From Vulcanimicrobiota bacterium (GTDB lineage Bacteria; Vulcanimicrobiota; Vulcanimicrobiia; Eremiobacterales; Eremiobacteraceae), in contig JAFAKE010000013.1 of assembly GCA_019235715.1 (NCBI GenBank), positions 1-60,699 on the forward strand: 60,699 nucleotides of DNA, given 5' to 3'. The stretch's first letter is position 1, and each line of letters starts with the position of its first letter. Shown piece after piece: positions 45,595 to 53,029 of the stretch. The notes under the pieces were generated by a model. That model had not been told where the DNA came from and searched no databases. It saw nothing but the letters and a program-made list of their open reading frames with translations. The position numbers and the translations under genes are program-made.

Positions 45595-48270
45595 TTAGGG
45601 CGGGCCCGCGGTTGAGATCGTGAGCCGGTCGGGCTCCAAGTATTTCTGCGCCGCAGCCTGGATCTGCGCAGGCGTGACCGCATCGAAGATACGGCGCAGC
45701 TGCTGCGAATGATCGACGCCAAGTCCCAACAGTTCTTGCTCCATCAAGTCGTCCGCCAGCCCGCCGTTTGAAAGCTCGCCGGTCAGCACGGCGTCAGCTG
45801 CAAGCCTGCGGTACTGCGCCAGCTCGTCCTCGCTCAGCTGCGCGCGCTGCAGCGAGCGCATTTGTTCCGCAGCTTCGGCCATCACGCGGTCGACGTCCGC
45901 TCGATCGGCCGCAAAGGTCATCGTCCAGGGGCCGCCGCCCGCGGTGCTTTCGGAAAAACGCGAGCCGATGTTGTACACGTATCCATCGACCTCGCGCGCC
46001 TGATGCAGCATCATCGAGCTGAGCGAGCCACCGCCGAGAATGAAGTTCATAAGTTGTGCGGCGTCGTAGTCGTCGGATCTCGCTGAGACGCCCGGCGCGC
46101 CGGCCCACACGTCGACTTGCGTGGTTCCCGGCACGACGGCATTCGCGCGGCGCGTTGCGGCCGGCAAGATTGGACCCGCAAGACCGCTGCCCGCGGCGAC
46201 ACGTACGCGCCGCCACGTGCCGAAGAGACGAACCACTTGCGCTTGGATCGCGCGCGGATCGACGTCACCCGTGACGACGATGATCGTGTCGTTCGGCGCG
46301 TAGTGCGCGCGGTAAAACGCGAGCGCGTCGGCGCGCCGCACTTTTTCGAGCCCTGCGACGGTTCCGTCGGCGGGCCATGCCCACGGACTCGAGCGCGGAT
46401 ATAGCATGCGGTACAAGGCCTCACGCGCGACGTTCGAAGCATCGCTTGCGCCGGCACGCACGTCGTCGATAAGCTGCGCCTTTGAAAGTCCGAACTCGTC
46501 AGCGTCGAATGCTGAATGTTGAAGCGCATCGGCAAGCAGCGCCATCGCCTTGGGCTCATCCGCCGACAGCGTTTGCGCGCTCATCCCCGCATCGGCGACA
46601 TGGATCCACGTGTCGACGTTGACGCCCAGCGCATCGAGCGCGTCTTGCCATTTTTCGCCGGGCGCCGCTGCAGTGCCGTGCAGCAGCATGTCCTGCGTCA
46701 ATGCGGCAAGCCCTGACGAGCCGGGCGTGTCGAACTCGCTGCCGGCGGCGCTGTCCACTTCGATGACCGCGCTTGCGCTTATGTGGTTCTCGCCGACGAC
46801 CAGCACCACGCCGTTCGGCAGCGTAAAGCGAGCCGGAAGATCCGATGCGCCGATGCCGCCGTTCTGCGCGCCCCAAGCTGTCGCAGCGGCGGCCCAGCGC
46901 CGGTACGCGGAGCGGCCTAAGACACGAGCGCCGCGCAGCGACAGCGCGTTCACTTTCCCGCTCGACGGGCGGGGGCTCGCGGTGAACGTGCCGACCGTCA
47001 AATTGTCGCGCGTCAAGTAGCGGCGCGCGGCTTGGCGCACTTGATCGGCCGTGACGGCTTCGATGCGCGCGGCGAAGCGCGCGTCGTTGTTCCAATCGCC
47101 GGTCCATGCCTGCCAGCGCGCCAGCTTCTCAGCGACCTGCTCGATGCCGTCGTGCTCGAAGGTGTCGGCCGCGATGACCTGTTTCTTCGCGGTGCGCAGT
47201 TCCGCGTCGCTCACTTTGCCCTGCGCCACCTTCGTGAGCTCGCGCTCGATGACGGCGCGCGCGTCGTCAGCCGATACGCCCTGCAGCAGCGTCACGGTGA
47301 CGGTATAGACGAAGGGATCTACTGCATCGTTCGGCGCCGTCGAGATGTCGCTCGCGTACTCTCCTTCGAGCGCCTGGAATAAGCGGGAAGATTGTCCGCC
47401 CGCGAGCAGGCCGTCAAGCACGCGCAACACATATGCGTCGTCGCTGTAACCGCCCGGTACGTGGTAGGCCATCTCGAGCTTGTCCGCCGGCGCCGGCCCG
47501 CTCAGCGTGACGCGGCGAACGCCGTGCTGCGCCGGTTCGACGACTGCCGGTGACGCCGCGATCGGCCGCTCGAGCACTGCGTCGAAATACTTGTGCACTT
47601 GCGCGAGCGCGGCGTCGCGATCGACGTCGCCCGTGATCACGAGCACTGCGTTCTGCGGCGCGTAATGACGCAGATAGAAATCATAGACGAGATCGCGATG
47701 AGTCGCGAACGTCGACACGACGTTCTTCCATCCGATGGTCGGCCAATGGTACTGGTGCGCCTGCATCGCCGCGGCGATGACTTGCTCGTCCAATCGCTGC
47801 GCCGGATCGTCGTCGGCGCGTTCCATCTCGGCGAGCACGACGACGTTCTCAGCCGCGAGCTGGTTGGCGTCAAAGGCCGCGTTGACCATGCGATCCGCCT
47901 CGACCGCGAGCGCGTCGCCGAGCTCGTCCGCGCGAAACGACTCGTAGTAGTACGTCGCGTCTTGATCGGTGCTCGCGTTGTTGTCGTAGAAGCGGCGGTC
48001 GATGTCGCCGGGCTTGAGCAAGTCGGTCGTTCCCTTGAACATCATGTGCTCGACCTGGTGGGCGACGCCGGTCGTCCACGGCGTTTCATCGCGCGAACCG
48101 CACTTGTACAAGATGCCGAGCGTCGCGACGCCGCGCGCGTGTGCCGGCGCGATCACAACCGTCAAGCCGTTGTGCAAGACGGAGACCGACGCCATCACGT
48201 CGGCGCGTGCCGATTCCGGCGCTGACGATAGCAGCGCGAAAATCCACAAAGCGAGCAAGCGTTGATTCAA
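45595..48270 (-). CDS. Secreted M16 zinc peptidase, tandem domain
   Basis: An 891-residue protein with a signal peptide (LLALWIFALLSSAPESARA). The first M16 half has the inverted zinc motif HQVEHMMFKG (H-x-x-E-H) and a downstream Glu in ENVVVLAEMER. The second half (from about residue 470) lacks the motif, having LTQDMLLHG instead, as expected for the inactive half that closes the chamber. It degrades peptides in the periplasm. Start TTG at 48270 fits the signal peptide; the frame is open further to 48357. It is divergent from the PKD protein, with 107 bp between. Confidence 0.87.
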   Translation of the reverse strand: MNQRLLALWIFALLSSAPESARADVMASVSVLHNGLTVVIAPAHARGVATLGILYKCGSRDETPWTTGVAHQVEHMMFKGTTDLLKPGDIDRRFYDNNASTDQDATYYYESFRADELGDALAVEADRMVNAAFDANQLAAENVVVLAEMERADDDPAQRLDEQVIAAAMQAHQYHWPTIGWKNVVSTFATHRDLVYDFYLRHYAPQNAVLVITGDVDRDAALAQVHKYFDAVLERPIAASPAVVEPAQHGVRRVTLSGPAPADKLEMAYHVPGGYSDDAYVLRVLDGLLAGGQSSRLFQALEGEYASDISTAPNDAVDPFVYTVTVTLLQGVSADDARAVIERELTKVAQGKVSDAELRTAKKQVIAADTFEHDGIEQVAEKLARWQAWTGDWNNDARFAARIEAVTADQVRQAARRYLTRDNLTVGTFTASPRPSSGKVNALSLRGARVLGRSAYRRWAAAATAWGAQNGGIGASDLPARFTLPNGVVLVVGENHISASAVIEVDSAAGSEFDTPGSSGLAALTQDMLLHGTAAAPGEKWQDALDALGVNVDTWIHVADAGMSAQTLSADEPKAMALLADALQHSAFDADEFGLSKAQLIDDVRAGASDASNVAREALYRMLYPRSSPWAWPADGTVAGLEKVRRADALAFYRAHYAPNDTIIVVTGDVDPRAIQAQVVRLFGTWRRVRVAAGSGLAGPILPAATRRANAVVPGTTQVDVWAGAPGVSARSDDYDAAQLMNFILGGGSLSSMMLHQAREVDGYVYNIGSRFSESTAGGGPWTMTFAADRADVDRVMAEAAEQMRSLQRAQLSEDELAQYRRLAADAVLTGELSNGGLADDLMEQELLGLGVDHSQQLRRIFDAVTPAQIQAAAQKYLEPDRLTISTAGPP

Positions 48271-48377: not shown

Positions 48378-51197
48378 ATGCAGCATACCGCGAGCGTTTT
48401 TGTCATTGCGCTGCGCCGTGCAGTCGTGGGAATCGCGTTCGCGCTCGTCATGTGCGCCGCTCCGCGGATCGCACAGGCCCAAACCGGATCGATCGTCGCC
48501 AGTCCGTCAGTCGCTTTGCCGGGCCAGACCGTCACGCTCACCGTCAATCTAACCCCGTCGGGACCGTCAGTGCTGCATTTCGGCGACGGCGCCTTTGTCG
48601 GCTTGGTCGGGCCGTATCCGCAGTCCGTCCCCCATCAATACGCCCTCCCGGGCAATTACACGCCGACGCTGACCATCATCGGCAATCCATCGCCCATCGC
48701 TTCGGGCAGCGTGACGGTGGCGAATCCAAATGCGTTCTCGCTGACCGCTGCACCCAATAACGTCCTCGCCGGCCAGCTCGTCAATTTCACGGCCCTGCTC
48801 GGCGTGCGCTTGCCGGGAGCGTATGTCGACTTCGGCGACGGCACGTCGGCGCCCGCGCTCGCGCCCTCGAACCAACTGTCGCATCGCTATCAGAACCCGG
48901 GTTTCTATCTCGCGCGCTTGCTGATCGTCGGGTCCAACGTGACGTATGGAGAAGCGGGCGTGAATGTCACGGCAAACACGGTGAACGTGCCCGCGGGGCA
49001 GATCTACTCGTCGTTCCTGGTCGGCTCGCCGGTGCTCGCGGGAACCGACACAGCCATCGCGCTGAGCTACCGCATCTTCACGCCGTTCGTGATCGGCCCG
49101 AGCGGCGTCAGTCCGCTGCAGGCGATCGTCGAGCTCACCGACATCCGCGGTAACGTCATCCAGCGCAGCGATCCATACGCGCTGCCGTTCACCCAGCAGA
49201 CGGTGAACGCACCGCAGACGGCGATGATCCCCTACACCGTGCCCGCCGACGCGGGCGGCGACTATCTCATCCGGGTGTACGTGCGCGTGACGCAAGGCGG
49301 CACCATCGCGGTCGGCCGCGCGCAGCCTCTGCAGATCATCGGCGGTGCCGATCCTGCGCCCATCGTCAGCAATACATTTCACGCCAGCGGGGCGGTCCTC
49401 ACGAGCTCGGGCACGAATCGCGGCGGCTACGAAGTGAACATGGGTTTGACCACCGCGCTGCAGTGGTCGAGCGAAGAGCTGCTGCTCACCGGCACTTTCG
49501 ATCCTGTTTCGAAAAAGATCGATCCGGTTCTGACGTACCAATCCGCGACGCCGGCGCCCGTGACGGCGCCGAACGCGACGTCGGCGCCCAATGCGTCGAC
49601 GTCGCAAGTCGATAGCGGCCAGGTCCCCGCGCCGCCCACAAGCGTCCAACAGCAGCCGCCGCCGAATGTACCAACGCCATCGCCGAACGCGTCGGCGCCG
49701 CCCGCGAACGTCACGCCGACGCCACCTTCGAACGTCACGCCCGCGCCCACGTCGTCGGGCCCGCCGAAGGCAATGAACGGCCTTAGCGCGGTGCAGCCGA
49801 GCAACGCCGACGCGGCGCCGAGCGATGCCAATGCGGCGCCCAGTCCATCGCCGCCGACCGGCCCGAGCACGCTCACAGGCTCCGCCGCCGAACAAGCAGG
49901 ACCGGCCGTGACGCCTGCGCCGGCGCCGGCTCCCGAACAAGGCCAAACGCCCGCGCCTTCGTTGAATTTCAAGGATGTGGTCGGCCGGACCGACGCCGCG
50001 ATGCCCGCCGTGATAGGCAGCAAAGAAACGGTGCGCGGTCTTGACGCGACGTACGCGCTTTCAGACGGCTGGACGCTGCATGGCGGCGCAGGCTACTTGC
50101 AGTTGGCGACCAACGCGACGACCGAACGCACAGGCGAGCTCTTGGATATCATCAAGGCGTGGGACGCCGGGGCTGACGCGTTTAGACTCGCCGTCTCTCG
50201 GAATGAGGACGATGTGAACAAATTCGTCCAAACCGGTCCGACGGGGCCGCTGGATGTCAGCGCAGGGGTCTTCGAATTCACCAACCAGCTCACTCCGCAC
50301 CTCAAAGCTTTCATCACCGGCGGCGGCTCAAACTCGATCCCGGAGACGGGCCCGATGCCCTCCTTCGGGGGATCCGTCAATCAGGAAGAGCTCGCGTACA
50401 ACGTCGGCGCGACGACCGTCGACGTTCAATATCACAATGCCGCCGCGCAGTTCGGCACCCTGAGCGGCGCCTCGGCGCTGTCCGATCGTGCCGGAGGCGC
50501 AGCGACCGTCAATCTAGCGCCCTCGCCGATCTCGTCGCTCGTGCTCAGTTACACGAACGACTCGCTGCATTCGATCTTCACGCGTACGACAGCAAGCAAT
50601 GCGACGTTCAACATCGCGCCGCCGAAATGGCCCGGCATCACCGTCGGTCTCGAGCGCGATACCGCGCTCGCGCCGGGCAGCGATGCCTTGACCAAGACCT
50701 TCAATATCGGCGTTTCCAAGAGCGGCATCTCGAGCCTCACGGTCAACGGCACGATCGCAGCGGTCAGCGATTCGCTCGCGCCGGAGGCATACTCGACCAC
50801 GCGAACGGGCGTGGTCACCTATCAATATGCCAACGGAGCGCACACGTTCGGCGCCGGCTTGAACGCGACCAATACCACAAGCACGGCCGCATCGGCCACC
50901 GTGACCGAGTCGGTAAATTACGGATTCACGTTTGGCGGCCACGCGCCGCCGAATCCGCAAGGCTTGCCGGCGACGCCGACGCGCAATTTCGAGACCAAAC
51001 TGACGCTGACCAACGTCAACACGCGCGCGCTGCTGACCGGCGGCCATACCGCGACCGCGACCGGCTTGCTCTCATGGCACGTGACCGGACAGCTCGCGCC
51101 GGGCATCGAGTTCAACTACCAGCGCCATTACGACAACGTTCCGAGTCTTGACACCGAGACGTCGTTCGCGCGCTTCCGTCTCGACGTCAATTTCTAG
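48378..51197 (+). CDS. PKD-domain protein with Pro-rich linker and C-terminal beta-barrel-like domain
   Basis: A 939-residue exported protein. The signal peptide ends at PRIAQA. Two Ig-like/PKD domains follow (HFGDGAFVG about residue 68, VDFGDGTSAP about 150, each with a later HQYALPGNYTPTL / HRYQNPGFYLARL strand). Then comes a further beta domain, then a Pro/Ala/Thr/Ser low-complexity linker (about 390-530). The last 400 residues are alternating hydrophobic/polar strands rich in Thr, Asn and Gly, ending in FRLDVNF with a terminal Phe, as in outer-membrane barrels. Possibly a surface adhesin or envelope-spanning protein. A lipoprotein gene follows after four bases. Confidence 0.75.
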   Translation: MQHTASVFVIALRRAVVGIAFALVMCAAPRIAQAQTGSIVASPSVALPGQTVTLTVNLTPSGPSVLHFGDGAFVGLVGPYPQSVPHQYALPGNYTPTLTIIGNPSPIASGSVTVANPNAFSLTAAPNNVLAGQLVNFTALLGVRLPGAYVDFGDGTSAPALAPSNQLSHRYQNPGFYLARLLIVGSNVTYGEAGVNVTANTVNVPAGQIYSSFLVGSPVLAGTDTAIALSYRIFTPFVIGPSGVSPLQAIVELTDIRGNVIQRSDPYALPFTQQTVNAPQTAMIPYTVPADAGGDYLIRVYVRVTQGGTIAVGRAQPLQIIGGADPAPIVSNTFHASGAVLTSSGTNRGGYEVNMGLTTALQWSSEELLLTGTFDPVSKKIDPVLTYQSATPAPVTAPNATSAPNASTSQVDSGQVPAPPTSVQQQPPPNVPTPSPNASAPPANVTPTPPSNVTPAPTSSGPPKAMNGLSAVQPSNADAAPSDANAAPSPSPPTGPSTLTGSAAEQAGPAVTPAPAPAPEQGQTPAPSLNFKDVVGRTDAAMPAVIGSKETVRGLDATYALSDGWTLHGGAGYLQLATNATTERTGELLDIIKAWDAGADAFRLAVSRNEDDVNKFVQTGPTGPLDVSAGVFEFTNQLTPHLKAFITGGGSNSIPETGPMPSFGGSVNQEELAYNVGATTVDVQYHNAAAQFGTLSGASALSDRAGGAATVNLAPSPISSLVLSYTNDSLHSIFTRTTASNATFNIAPPKWPGITVGLERDTALAPGSDALTKTFNIGVSKSGISSLTVNGTIAAVSDSLAPEAYSTTRTGVVTYQYANGAHTFGAGLNATNTTSTAASATVTESVNYGFTFGGHAPPNPQGLPATPTRNFETKLTLTNVNTRALLTGGHTATATGLLSWHVTGQLAPGIEFNYQRHYDNVPSLDTETSFARFRLDVNF

Positions 51198-51201
51198 GCG
51201 G

Positions 51202-51573
51202 GTGCCCGCAGCGCCGTTCATCGCGCTGCTCGCGGCGATCGTTGCGTGTACCGGCTGTTCGCGCGGTTCGGTGCGCGCGCTCTCCTCGCCGCCGCCGCTG
51301 ATCACCGGCGCGTATCCGCAGTACGGTCACGCATCCGATTTCAGCTGGGTCGCCGGACGACTGGCGCCGCGGCCCAACGGCTGCACGTATGTCGAATTCG
51401 ATCCGCGCCGCGGCGAGCCGTGGGATGGACGCATCGCGCTCAATGCGCCGCCCGAGATGCTTGCAGCGTTCCCGGGCGGCGATATGGTCGTGGCGTTCGG
51501 ACGCGTCAGCCGCGCGCCGAACGGCGAGTGCGGCGCTGCATCCCTGGACGTCTCACAGCTCGGCGAGCACTAA
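51202..51573 (+). CDS. Small lipoprotein, unknown function
   Basis: A 123-residue protein with a signal peptide and lipobox (FIALLAAIVACTGC). The mature part is short, with two later Cys (NGCTYVEF and NGECGAAS) that may form a disulfide. No family recognised. Start GTG 51202 lies four bases after the stop of the PKD/barrel gene, so they are probably co-transcribed and may work together in the envelope. Its 3' end overlaps the convergent gene by four bases. Confidence 0.7.
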   Translation: MPAAPFIALLAAIVACTGCSRGSVRALSSPPPLITGAYPQYGHASDFSWVAGRLAPRPNGCTYVEFDPRRGEPWDGRIALNAPPEMLAAFPGGDMVVAFGRVSRAPNGECGAASLDVSQLGEH

Positions 51574-52001
51574 TCGCCGCCGTGATGACGGCGATGACGA
51601 GGCGTCGCCGTCGCTTCGGGCGCGGCCGTCGCTTCCGTCGTGCTTGAGTTCATATGCGAGTGGCGTGCGCCGGCAGGATGGTCGCCTTGCGCGATCGCGT
51701 CGGCGCGGCACATGTACGCGCCGTTCTTCGTCTTCCCATAATATGGATCGCCAGGATCGTGGAATGCCTTGGTGTGCATGTTGACCCACACGATGTCTTG
51801 GCTCGAGCATTTCAAGCCCGCTGGGATTTTCGCGGCCACCGCAAGCGGCAGCGCGTTCTGTTCGGCGTGAATCACACTTGTGGGCGTAGGGCTCGCCGCG
51901 GTGGACGTATTCGAATTCGATGAACCTCCGCCGCCGCAGCCGGCAATCACCGTCGCGAGCGCAAAAAATGAGACCAGCGTCACCACTTTCAGGTGCTGCA
52001 T
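51570..52001 (-). CDS. Lipoprotein with short WVN-YYG-type domain
   Basis: A 143-residue lipoprotein: signal peptide VVTLVSFFALATVIAGC, then a Gly/Ser/Thr-rich linker. The core IVWVNMHTKAFHDPGDPYYGKTKNGAYMCRADAIAQG resembles a small secreted-protein motif (WVNxxxxxYHxPGxxYYGxTKxGxYM) seen in many bacteria. The His-rich tail (RHRRHHGGD, with HSHMNS) could bind metal. ATG 52001 is favoured by GAGGAG eight bases upstream. Function unknown. Confidence 0.75.
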   Translation of the reverse strand: MQHLKVVTLVSFFALATVIAGCGGGGSSNSNTSTAASPTPTSVIHAEQNALPLAVAAKIPAGLKCSSQDIVWVNMHTKAFHDPGDPYYGKTKNGAYMCRADAIAQGDHPAGARHSHMNSSTTEATAAPEATATPRHRRHHGGD

Positions 52002-52126
52002 TTCCACATCTCCTCATGTCCCGAAAAAGAAAACGGCGAGGGCGTGTCCTCGATATCGCCGAAGATACAGACAGTAAAGCATTTTCCCCTGCGGATAGCT
52101 GTATCAGCGGAGGCCCGCTCTTTATT

Positions 52127-53029
52127 TTGAAGCCATGTGTCGGCGCTCTCGCCGTTTGCATTCTACTCGCCGCCAATATCGCGCGTGCTGACACCACGCT
52201 CGTCAACGGCGACAACACCGCGGCCGCTCCCGCCACCGAAACGGGCGCCGTTCACCGCGTCGGCGATTCGTTCGATTACACCGTCAAAGGCAGCATGCTG
52301 CAGTCGATCCTCGCGAATGACGGCCTCGGCAAGAAGATCGATCAGCCCGGCCTACCGACCGCGCTCGACGGGCGCGAACACATCGCGGTGAAGCAGATCT
52401 CACTGCAAGGTCTCACGTTGCACCGCTCCGGCCTGATCGTCGCCATCGTCTCCAATAGATCGGAGAAAAGCTCGGGCAAAGGCTGGACGATCGTGCGCGA
52501 TGATGGTTCGATCGCGAAAGATTCGGGCAATCTCGGCGGCGTGTTCTTGCTGCCGCTGCCGTTCCTCGGCGACCGCTCCGTCAACGCTGGACTCGATCTT
52601 GCCGTCGGCACGTCGTGGAGCGAAAAACTCGGCACGAAGCTGTACGGCATGATGGCGCGGCCGTCGATGGACTTTCAAATCACCGGGCAGCGCCTGGTGC
52701 TCGGCGTGAACGTCTACGAGCTCGACGCCACAGGCTCAGCGCCGATGAAAGAACCGATCGTCTCGAACACCGGCGAAGCGCTCGGTTACGCGACCGGCAC
52801 CGCGCACATCTCGATGCACGGTGAGTACGATCCGCTCAATCATCGCATCATCTCAATGGACATCGAGGTCACCGACACGCTCCACATCGCGGGATCGGGC
52901 AAACGGACTGGCACGGTTGAAGACCATCAGCATTACGCGGTCGAGCTCGACCCCGCCTCACTGGAGGTCGGCTCCGGCCAGAACGAAGTGATCTCGCCGC
53001 CCGTCGACGCGCCGCTCATCCAACACTAG
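52127..53029 (+). CDS. Secreted protein, unknown function
   Basis: A 300-residue exported protein with signal peptide GALAVCILLAANIARA. The mature part is a beta-rich fold with GDSFDYTVKG, LPLPFLGDRSV, ATGTAHISMHGEYDPLNHRIISMDIEVTDTL; no family recognised with certainty. The TTG at 52127 begins the signal peptide directly, with GGAGG 13 bases before it. An in-frame ATG at 52016 would add 37 residues and leave only 14 bases to the divergent lipoprotein start. Confidence 0.65.
   Translation: MKPCVGALAVCILLAANIARADTTLVNGDNTAAAPATETGAVHRVGDSFDYTVKGSMLQSILANDGLGKKIDQPGLPTALDGREHIAVKQISLQGLTLHRSGLIVAIVSNRSEKSSGKGWTIVRDDGSIAKDSGNLGGVFLLPLPFLGDRSVNAGLDLAVGTSWSEKLGTKLYGMMARPSMDFQITGQRLVLGVNVYELDATGSAPMKEPIVSNTGEALGYATGTAHISMHGEYDPLNHRIISMDIEVTDTLHIAGSGKRTGTVEDHQHYAVELDPASLEVGSGQNEVISPPVDAPLIQH

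Follow-up and report, generated by a model that had tools for sequence, protein, structure and literature searches.

A predicted large outer-membrane barrel with PKD and Ig-like domains and an internal proline-rich insert in Candidatus Eremiobacterota

Introduction

Outer-membrane barrels of at least 24 strands are few, and their clients include pilus subunits and lipopolysaccharide (LPS). The chaperone-usher pores FimD and PapC carry a plug inserted between barrel strands, and LptD has an N-terminal periplasmic beta domain. Type V autotransporters have a 12-strand barrel with a helix threading its pore. MtrB forms a 26-strand barrel, and the client of this large barrel is a haem wire, as stated in passages of one paper (PMC7198977). 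Here we describe a gene located in a 60,699-nucleotide stretch of DNA (contig JAFAKE010000013.1 of assembly GCA_019235715.1; hereafter the window) from a member of the phylum Candidatus Eremiobacterota (WPS-2), whose genome of 2.5 Mb is assembled in 107 contigs. We consider it reasonably likely that its product is a large outer-membrane barrel of about 26 strands (residues 322-389 together with 531-939), with PKD and Ig-like domains on the periplasmic side and a wide channel in which a client is docked.

The first cultivated member of this phylum was reported in 2022, and part of that report describes a Gram-negative wall with an outer membrane covered by LPS (PMC9758169). A passage in another paper treats the phylum as diderm, with LPS and BamA (PMC6664022). 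One Omp85 match was found in the window's genome.

Results

Domain organization and conservation of the barrel gene

The barrel gene is a single 939-residue frame on the plus strand, running from an ATG at 48378 to a TAG at 51195-51197. Its product was divided as follows.

48378..48482, plus strand: signal peptide, residues 1-35; cleavage after AQA judged by eye; helix at 9-20 in the model
48483..48722, plus strand: PKD domain 1, residues ~36-115; Pfam PKD/PKD_4; motifs FGDG and H.Y; predicted local distance difference test score (pLDDT) 82-91 from residue 41
48735..48971, plus strand: PKD domain 2, residues ~120-198; best PF00801 stretch 120-181, E 1.8e-8
48972..49340, plus strand: third, Ig-like beta domain, residues ~199-321; strands in the model; matched by the profile in a homologue from genome G126
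49341..49544, plus strand: predicted barrel strands 1-4, residues 322-389, N-terminal to the proline-rich insert; from the model of a short-insert homologue and the MtrB alignment
49545..49967, plus strand: Pro/Ala-rich insert between strands 4 and 5, residues 390-530; predicted disordered, pLDDT <35; periplasmic by strand parity
49968..51194, plus strand: predicted barrel strands 5-26, residues 531-939; C-terminus ARFRLDVNF; 22 antiparallel strands, with matches to MtrB and other barrels

The open reading frame, Pfam and the structural model agree with the original prediction that PKD domains, a proline-rich stretch and C-terminal strands ending in Phe lie in one chain. That list of parts was right as far as it went; the third, Ig-like domain and the predicted strands before the insert had been missed. 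Two stretches of the protein matched PKD in Pfam (E 1.8e-8), above the curated cut-offs (PF00801, 34.7 vs 23.5 bits; PF18911, 34.1 vs 27 bits). The sole further Pfam match was a weak one to DUF1737 (E 0.23), and neither NCBIfam nor a phmmer comparison with the Protein Data Bank (PDB) gave any match for the window protein. The signal peptide and the alternating hydrophobic last strand were recognized by eye.

Conservation was assessed in 149 genomes of the phylum, with a class subset of 117; the first search, with the window protein as query, covered 61 (its own genome and 60 relatives). Matches were obtained in 13 of the 61 genomes (E up to 0.01). They covered nearly the entire query in one piece in four (G000, G001, G002 and G006), appeared as separate N- and C-terminal pieces in eight, and were weak and restricted to the linker region in G025. 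A profile built from the first 12 full-length homologues (alignment A1) matched 15 of the 117 class genomes and 24 of the 149 phylum genomes. These 24 comprised 13 full-length homologues (13 of 149 genomes, G109 being added), ten short matches limited to the profile's PKD part, and G126. PKD_4 was detected by Pfam in 11 of the 12 rows of A1. By motif, five rows contain two PKD copies and seven contain one, and the G126 protein has none. The barrel gene is therefore real and conserved within Candidatus Eremiobacterota.

The G126 homologue (P0009, a 652-residue frame) matched profile positions 125-327 with E 1.4e-8, equivalent to residues 199-401 of the window protein; its barrel scored weakly against the barrel profile (10.7 bits; best of 50 shuffles, 1.0). 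Its locus (L080:5154-7058) belongs to another class of the phylum and encodes an Ig-plus-barrel-like protein without PKD domain or insert. Relatives of this protein were seen at G126:C339:12328-14112 and C284:4191-5902, one of them in a 1593-residue frame, and G024, a genome without the barrel gene, gave a weak match to the same type of protein (G024:C11:87078-88211).

Beyond the phylum set, one scan of named genomes, with no wider phylum search, returned a single locus, from a genus relative. The profile of the barrel region (alignment A2, 13 rows) reached no E below 0.18 against PDB sequences, and the whole profile retrieved only PKD-bearing chains, mostly collagenases. When the 13 C-terminal parts were compared with Pfam (E up to 0.1), 12 matched no barrel family and one matched TraF_2 (E 0.0025). 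A literature search by title and start of abstract (PKD with outer membrane, barrel, porin, periplasm or autotransporter; WPS-2) revealed no such protein.

Predicted fold of the C-terminal region

The window protein was modeled with AlphaFold from a 12-row alignment (mean pLDDT 66.7). Residues 41-200, containing the two PKD domains, had a pLDDT of 82-91 and were followed by the third beta domain, up to about residue 321. Residues 390-530 fell below 35. From 531 to 937 the model contains 22 antiparallel strands, mostly at pLDDT 70-90. A second model, with a pLDDT of 76.4, was built from A2 for the barrel region of a short-insert homologue (L027; 506 residues, including a 30-residue insert). It has 26 strands when elements 106-108 and 110-112 are merged as one, and four of them precede the insert (8-23, 33-49, 52-58 and 70-75).

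In the search with the L027 barrel, MtrB (6r2q_B) ranked first both in Foldseek (E 4.4e-8) and in VIA (Z 17.0, root mean square deviation (rmsd) 6.7, 429 residues aligned, model residues 9..506). In Z, it tied with 14 other barrel rows, porins and TonB receptors (Z 16.1-16.8; 241-343 aligned). All of the best 50 rows listed by VIA were outer-membrane barrel proteins or complexes containing one, judged by their titles. With the full window model, VIA aligned 409 residues of MtrB to residues 335 to 939 (Z 14.6, rmsd 4.1), a tie with 8agd_A (Z 15.0, 303 aligned, rmsd 7.4). Hydrophobicity alternated along the strands, with Trp and Tyr counted as hydrophobic (1.55 vs 1.06 in within-strand shuffles; 3 of 2000 shuffles were as high).

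The prediction is thus of a closed, antiparallel barrel with an even number of strands, in which the first to the last strands align with known barrels. As a modeled fold class, a large outer-membrane barrel is well supported. An outer-membrane barrel had already been proposed for the last 400 or so residues, and the model together with the VIA and Foldseek matches predicts the same. Neither the soluble sandwich nor the open barrel that had been named as refuting this proposal appeared.

Topology and the proline-rich insert

In known outer-membrane barrels, both termini are periplasmic. Whether or not the first four strands are counted, the predicted total is even; therefore the N- and C-termini would be on the same side. 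Loop lengths were compared by parity: in L027, loops following odd strands had a median of 7 residues and those following even strands a median of 4 (p 0.004, insert excluded), and the corresponding medians in the window protein were 7 and 3.5 (p 0.037). By this parity the insert is one of the even loops, those on the periplasmic side. About 14 residues separate the end of the Ig domain from the first residue aligned with MtrB (335), and the window model contains no helix between residues 321 and 358 or before strand 1. Since this gap is so short and helix-free in the model, nothing like a pore-threading linker is predicted. From the even strand number, the loop lengths and the lack of such a helix, we infer that PKD1, PKD2 and the Ig domain are most likely periplasmic and not an autotransporter passenger.

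This bears on the possibility that the barrel passes the PKD/Ig half outward and that the N-terminal domains act as a surface adhesin. As in type V autotransporters, a signal peptide, N-terminal domains and a C-terminal barrel are found in a single chain, and in ushers a lumen of 24-26 strands offers room for folded Ig domains. However, about 26 strands are predicted instead of 12. Pfam gave no match of the window protein to an autotransporter family at E up to 1, and no barrel family in 12 of the 13 C-terminal parts. Moreover, the long linker lies within the barrel and does not join a passenger to it. Neither the 12-strand barrel nor its threading helix is predicted here, and we regard surface display as quite unlikely. 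The original prediction had likened the N-terminal half to an extracellular adhesin, and had compared its passenger-first order with autotransporters. Strand parity places this half in the periplasm, and most likely the parts had been correctly recognized and the direction misread.

The proline-rich stretch of the window protein is 141 residues long in the model, 36 of them Pro and 27 Ala, and 143 in the alignment. Among the 13 homologues the insert varies from 24 to 156 residues: it measures 135-156 in G006 and the two relatives from the genus, and the nine other rows have 24-47. It had been taken for a spacer crossing the wall or the periplasm. In the model it interrupts the barrel between strands 4 and 5, and six homologues have only 24-31 residues at this place. 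A general role as wall-crossing spacer was discarded because most homologues manage without a long stretch.

Comparison with known barrel systems

The predicted protein resembles the MtrB/PioB sheath (6r2q chain B) in strand number (26) and overall barrel. It differs by its periplasmic PKD/Ig domains, its proline-rich insert and the lack of a sequence-family match, and no decahaem gene was found. As modeled, the likeness to MtrB is one of size and shape. An electron conduit in which the barrel sheathes a multihaem cytochrome would agree with MtrB being the first fold match. Against it, no Pfam or NCBIfam match links the window protein to a barrel family, the decahaem family TIGR03508 was found in none of the 13 genomes with the barrel gene (no control genome scored above the cut-off either), and neither the window nor the 12 homologue loci contain a frame with at least three CxxCH motifs. 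Such a conduit is extremely unlikely.

The usher pores FimD and PapC share a large barrel with an N-terminal periplasmic part, occupy Foldseek ranks 2-7 for the barrel, and have a plug that, like the insert, lies between barrel strands. Here, in contrast, the insert is predicted to be disordered and located at strands 4/5, the chain ends at the last strand, and no usher family was matched in Pfam. LptD (Foldseek rank 13 onward) is alike in size class, whereas the window protein lacks an LptD match in Pfam and the neighbouring lipoprotein is not conserved with the barrel. The Deinococcus SlpA/SDBC proteins are also large barrels (Z 13.8-15.0), but with a high rmsd (7.4-10.2); no SLH match in Pfam and no long helix in the model were observed here. 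Of the two-partner secretion system (TpsB/FhaC), neither the POTRA domain nor the Omp85-type barrel was matched by Pfam in the window protein. Where a new secretion design had been suggested, we read a design variant among known outer-membrane barrel proteins.

A giant PKD protein encoded beside the barrel gene in relatives

In five genomes (G004, G010, G033, G057 and G058), a giant gene, B, directly follows the barrel homologue, at +25, -4, -4, -4 and +1 bases, respectively, measured to the first start codon of the frame. Its product has 1327-1671 residues in the four complete genes; the G058 copy ends with its contig. G031 contains a full B (1421 residues) on a contig other than that of its barrel gene. 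Four of the five operons (G004, G010, G033 and G057) continue with a third gene after B. The loci are as follows.

Giant PKD protein B: L027:9202-14040; L030:5581-8121; L032:9775-13764; L033:1371-6386; L034:2369-6352; L081:6000-10265
Third gene, after B (in G031, before B): L027 from ~13914; L032:13755-15560; L033:3-1349; L034:574-2364; L081:10267-12159

B begins with a signal peptide (by eye) followed by a PKD-like domain, which exceeded the Pfam cut-off in one of three proteins scanned and fell below it in the other two. The barrel-gene profile matched this PKD part with E 9e-15 to 9e-12 in five genomes and 5.5e-8 in G031. In the alignment of B (A3), invariant columns are mostly confined to the first ~265 residues and the remainder diverges. 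The third gene was assigned to fn3 by Pfam above cut-off in three cases, of which G057 was marginal (25.1 vs 25 bits); Pfam gave no match for the third gene of G033 or for the gene before the B of G031.

The A3 profile matched 10 of the 149 genomes, and in four of them (G000, G001, G002 and G006) the match was confined to the PKD part of their own barrel gene. B is thus present in 6 of the 13 genomes with the barrel gene and in none of the 136 without it (Fisher 1.3e-7), absences being uncertain as some assemblies are incomplete (G001, 72%). The same profile did not find B in the window's genus. B is a better candidate for a partner than the lipoprotein described below.

An as yet undescribed two-gene export or anchoring system of Eremiobacterota might be imagined, in which the 26-strand barrel, its PKD/Ig domains serving for docking on the periplasmic side, handles B; where B is lacking, as in the window's lineage, the barrel gene would have moved beside nuoN and its loop would have grown. 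In such a system B would probably be Sec-exported and beta-rich, starting with the same kind of PKD domain. Taken as a whole, this scheme is tentative and rather unlikely. The insert has 24-31 residues in the six homologues with B and 44-156 in the seven without. We dropped this link as evidence; it was noticed post hoc and, on the family tree, amounts to one independent pair on the starred branches and two overall.

Conversely, the barrel might be a plain passive porin, a wide diffusion channel without client whose Ig domains brace the barrel or touch the peptidoglycan. Seven of the 13 genomes with the barrel gene, among them that of the window, yielded no B, and the porins OccK, LamB and OmpT are among the VIA matches. 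However, the predicted size class is that of MtrB, LptD and FimD, which hold a protein or lipid client, and B was seen only together with the barrel gene. A figure legend compares those three barrels in size (PMC7198977). A passive porin appears unlikely.

Neighbouring genes of the window

Two genes adjoin the barrel gene.

51202..51573, plus strand: small lipoprotein, 123 residues, GTG start; neighbour, probably outside the system
45595..48234, minus strand: M16 metallopeptidase with HxxEH, PF00675 and PF05193; true start possibly further upstream; divergent neighbour

The lipobox frame begins four bases after the stop of the barrel gene, and the two genes are adjacent and on the same strand in all three genomes of the window's genus. 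This coupling, noticed in the original prediction, stands in the window's genus only and is not borne out by synteny elsewhere. Both genus relatives (L024 and L025) retain the lipobox Cys, and the three genus members share the core motifs PWDGRIAL and GDMVVA. The lipoprotein family was detected in 12 of the 117 class genomes, that is in 11 of the 14 of the window's family and as one weak match elsewhere.

The adjacency could indicate a two-part complex like LptD/LptE. Against this, 6 of the 11 lipoprotein-bearing genomes of the 14-member family have no barrel-gene match, the two genes lie on different contigs in G004 and G010, and G006 has the barrel gene with no lipoprotein match. Furthermore, in each of the six loci examined from other genera (L096-L101, with G003 and G013 not among them), the lipoprotein was found within ~600 bases of nuoN, twice in opposite orientation. 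An LptD/LptE-like complex is therefore very unlikely, and the role of assembly partner that had been suggested for the lipoprotein was rejected on phyletic pattern and synteny; on this comparison of gene content it is probably no partner of the barrel protein.

Between nuoN and the lipoprotein, the genomes of the window's genus carry the M16 peptidase together with the barrel gene; in G006, the barrel gene occupies the corresponding place. The simplest history suggested by this gene order would be an insertion of the barrel gene beside nuoN. The peptidase was also rejected as partner, as it adjoins the barrel gene in the window's genus only. A shorter M16 relative (420 residues, 23-30% identity) was seen in G050, ~4.4 kb downstream of the barrel homologue.

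Pfam assigned the flanking genes to two Proton_antipo_M subunits (named nuoM and nuoN here from gene order), a dTDP-4-dehydrorhamnose 3,5-epimerase and an amino acid permease; the two small genes that separate these remained without a Pfam match. A short frame with a lipobox-like start (51570-52007, minus strand) and a frame for a secreted-looking protein (51920-53029, plus strand) gave no Pfam match. In several loci of the family, both recur in the interval from the lipoprotein to the permease.

Discussion

We propose that the barrel protein would be exported through Sec and, presumably with the help of BamA, inserted as a barrel made of residues 322-389 together with 531-939. Both PKD domains and the Ig-like domain would lie immediately beneath the membrane, with hardly any linker between them and strand 1, and the Pro/Ala-rich stretch would be a flexible periplasmic loop able to reach the lumen or the peptidoglycan. 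The channel would be wide, and the periplasmic Ig/PKD modules would dock and hold a client, which in several relatives is likely to be the giant PKD protein B encoded directly downstream. We infer that the barrel protein most likely serves to dock a client protein.

Several observations weigh against this proposal. The match to MtrB is a tie in Z, and the count of 26 strands depends on the merged element. With the full window model, Foldseek placed Ig-type proteins at the top and MtrB at rank 33 (E 5.4e-4). Both models were built from shallow alignments (12 and 13 rows). Confidence is low for strands 1-4, with a pLDDT of 26-53 in the window protein and of 55-66 in the homologue, and two of these strands span only 6-7 residues; because of this, the models would also allow 22 or 24 strands. 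The C-terminal residue is aromatic or aliphatic in seven of the 13 homologues and Gln in six. One loop that is periplasmic by parity has 17 residues, and PKD and Ig domains are commoner on cell surfaces. Kinship among the genomes inflates the co-occurrence of B with the barrel gene, its presence corresponding to two changes on the barrel-gene tree, and no cargo was identified in the window's genome.

This locus is of interest for the size class of the predicted barrel, which matches no named barrel family, for its internal proline-rich loop and for the pairing of barrel gene and B in relatives. It would also correct labels such as 'adhesin' or 'autotransporter' given by eye to genes of this kind. 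A predicted family of large barrels with no barrel match in Pfam or NCBIfam, and with a disordered periplasmic loop of variable length, raises the question of which client such a barrel may hold, and the operon with the giant PKD protein makes this question testable in the relatives.

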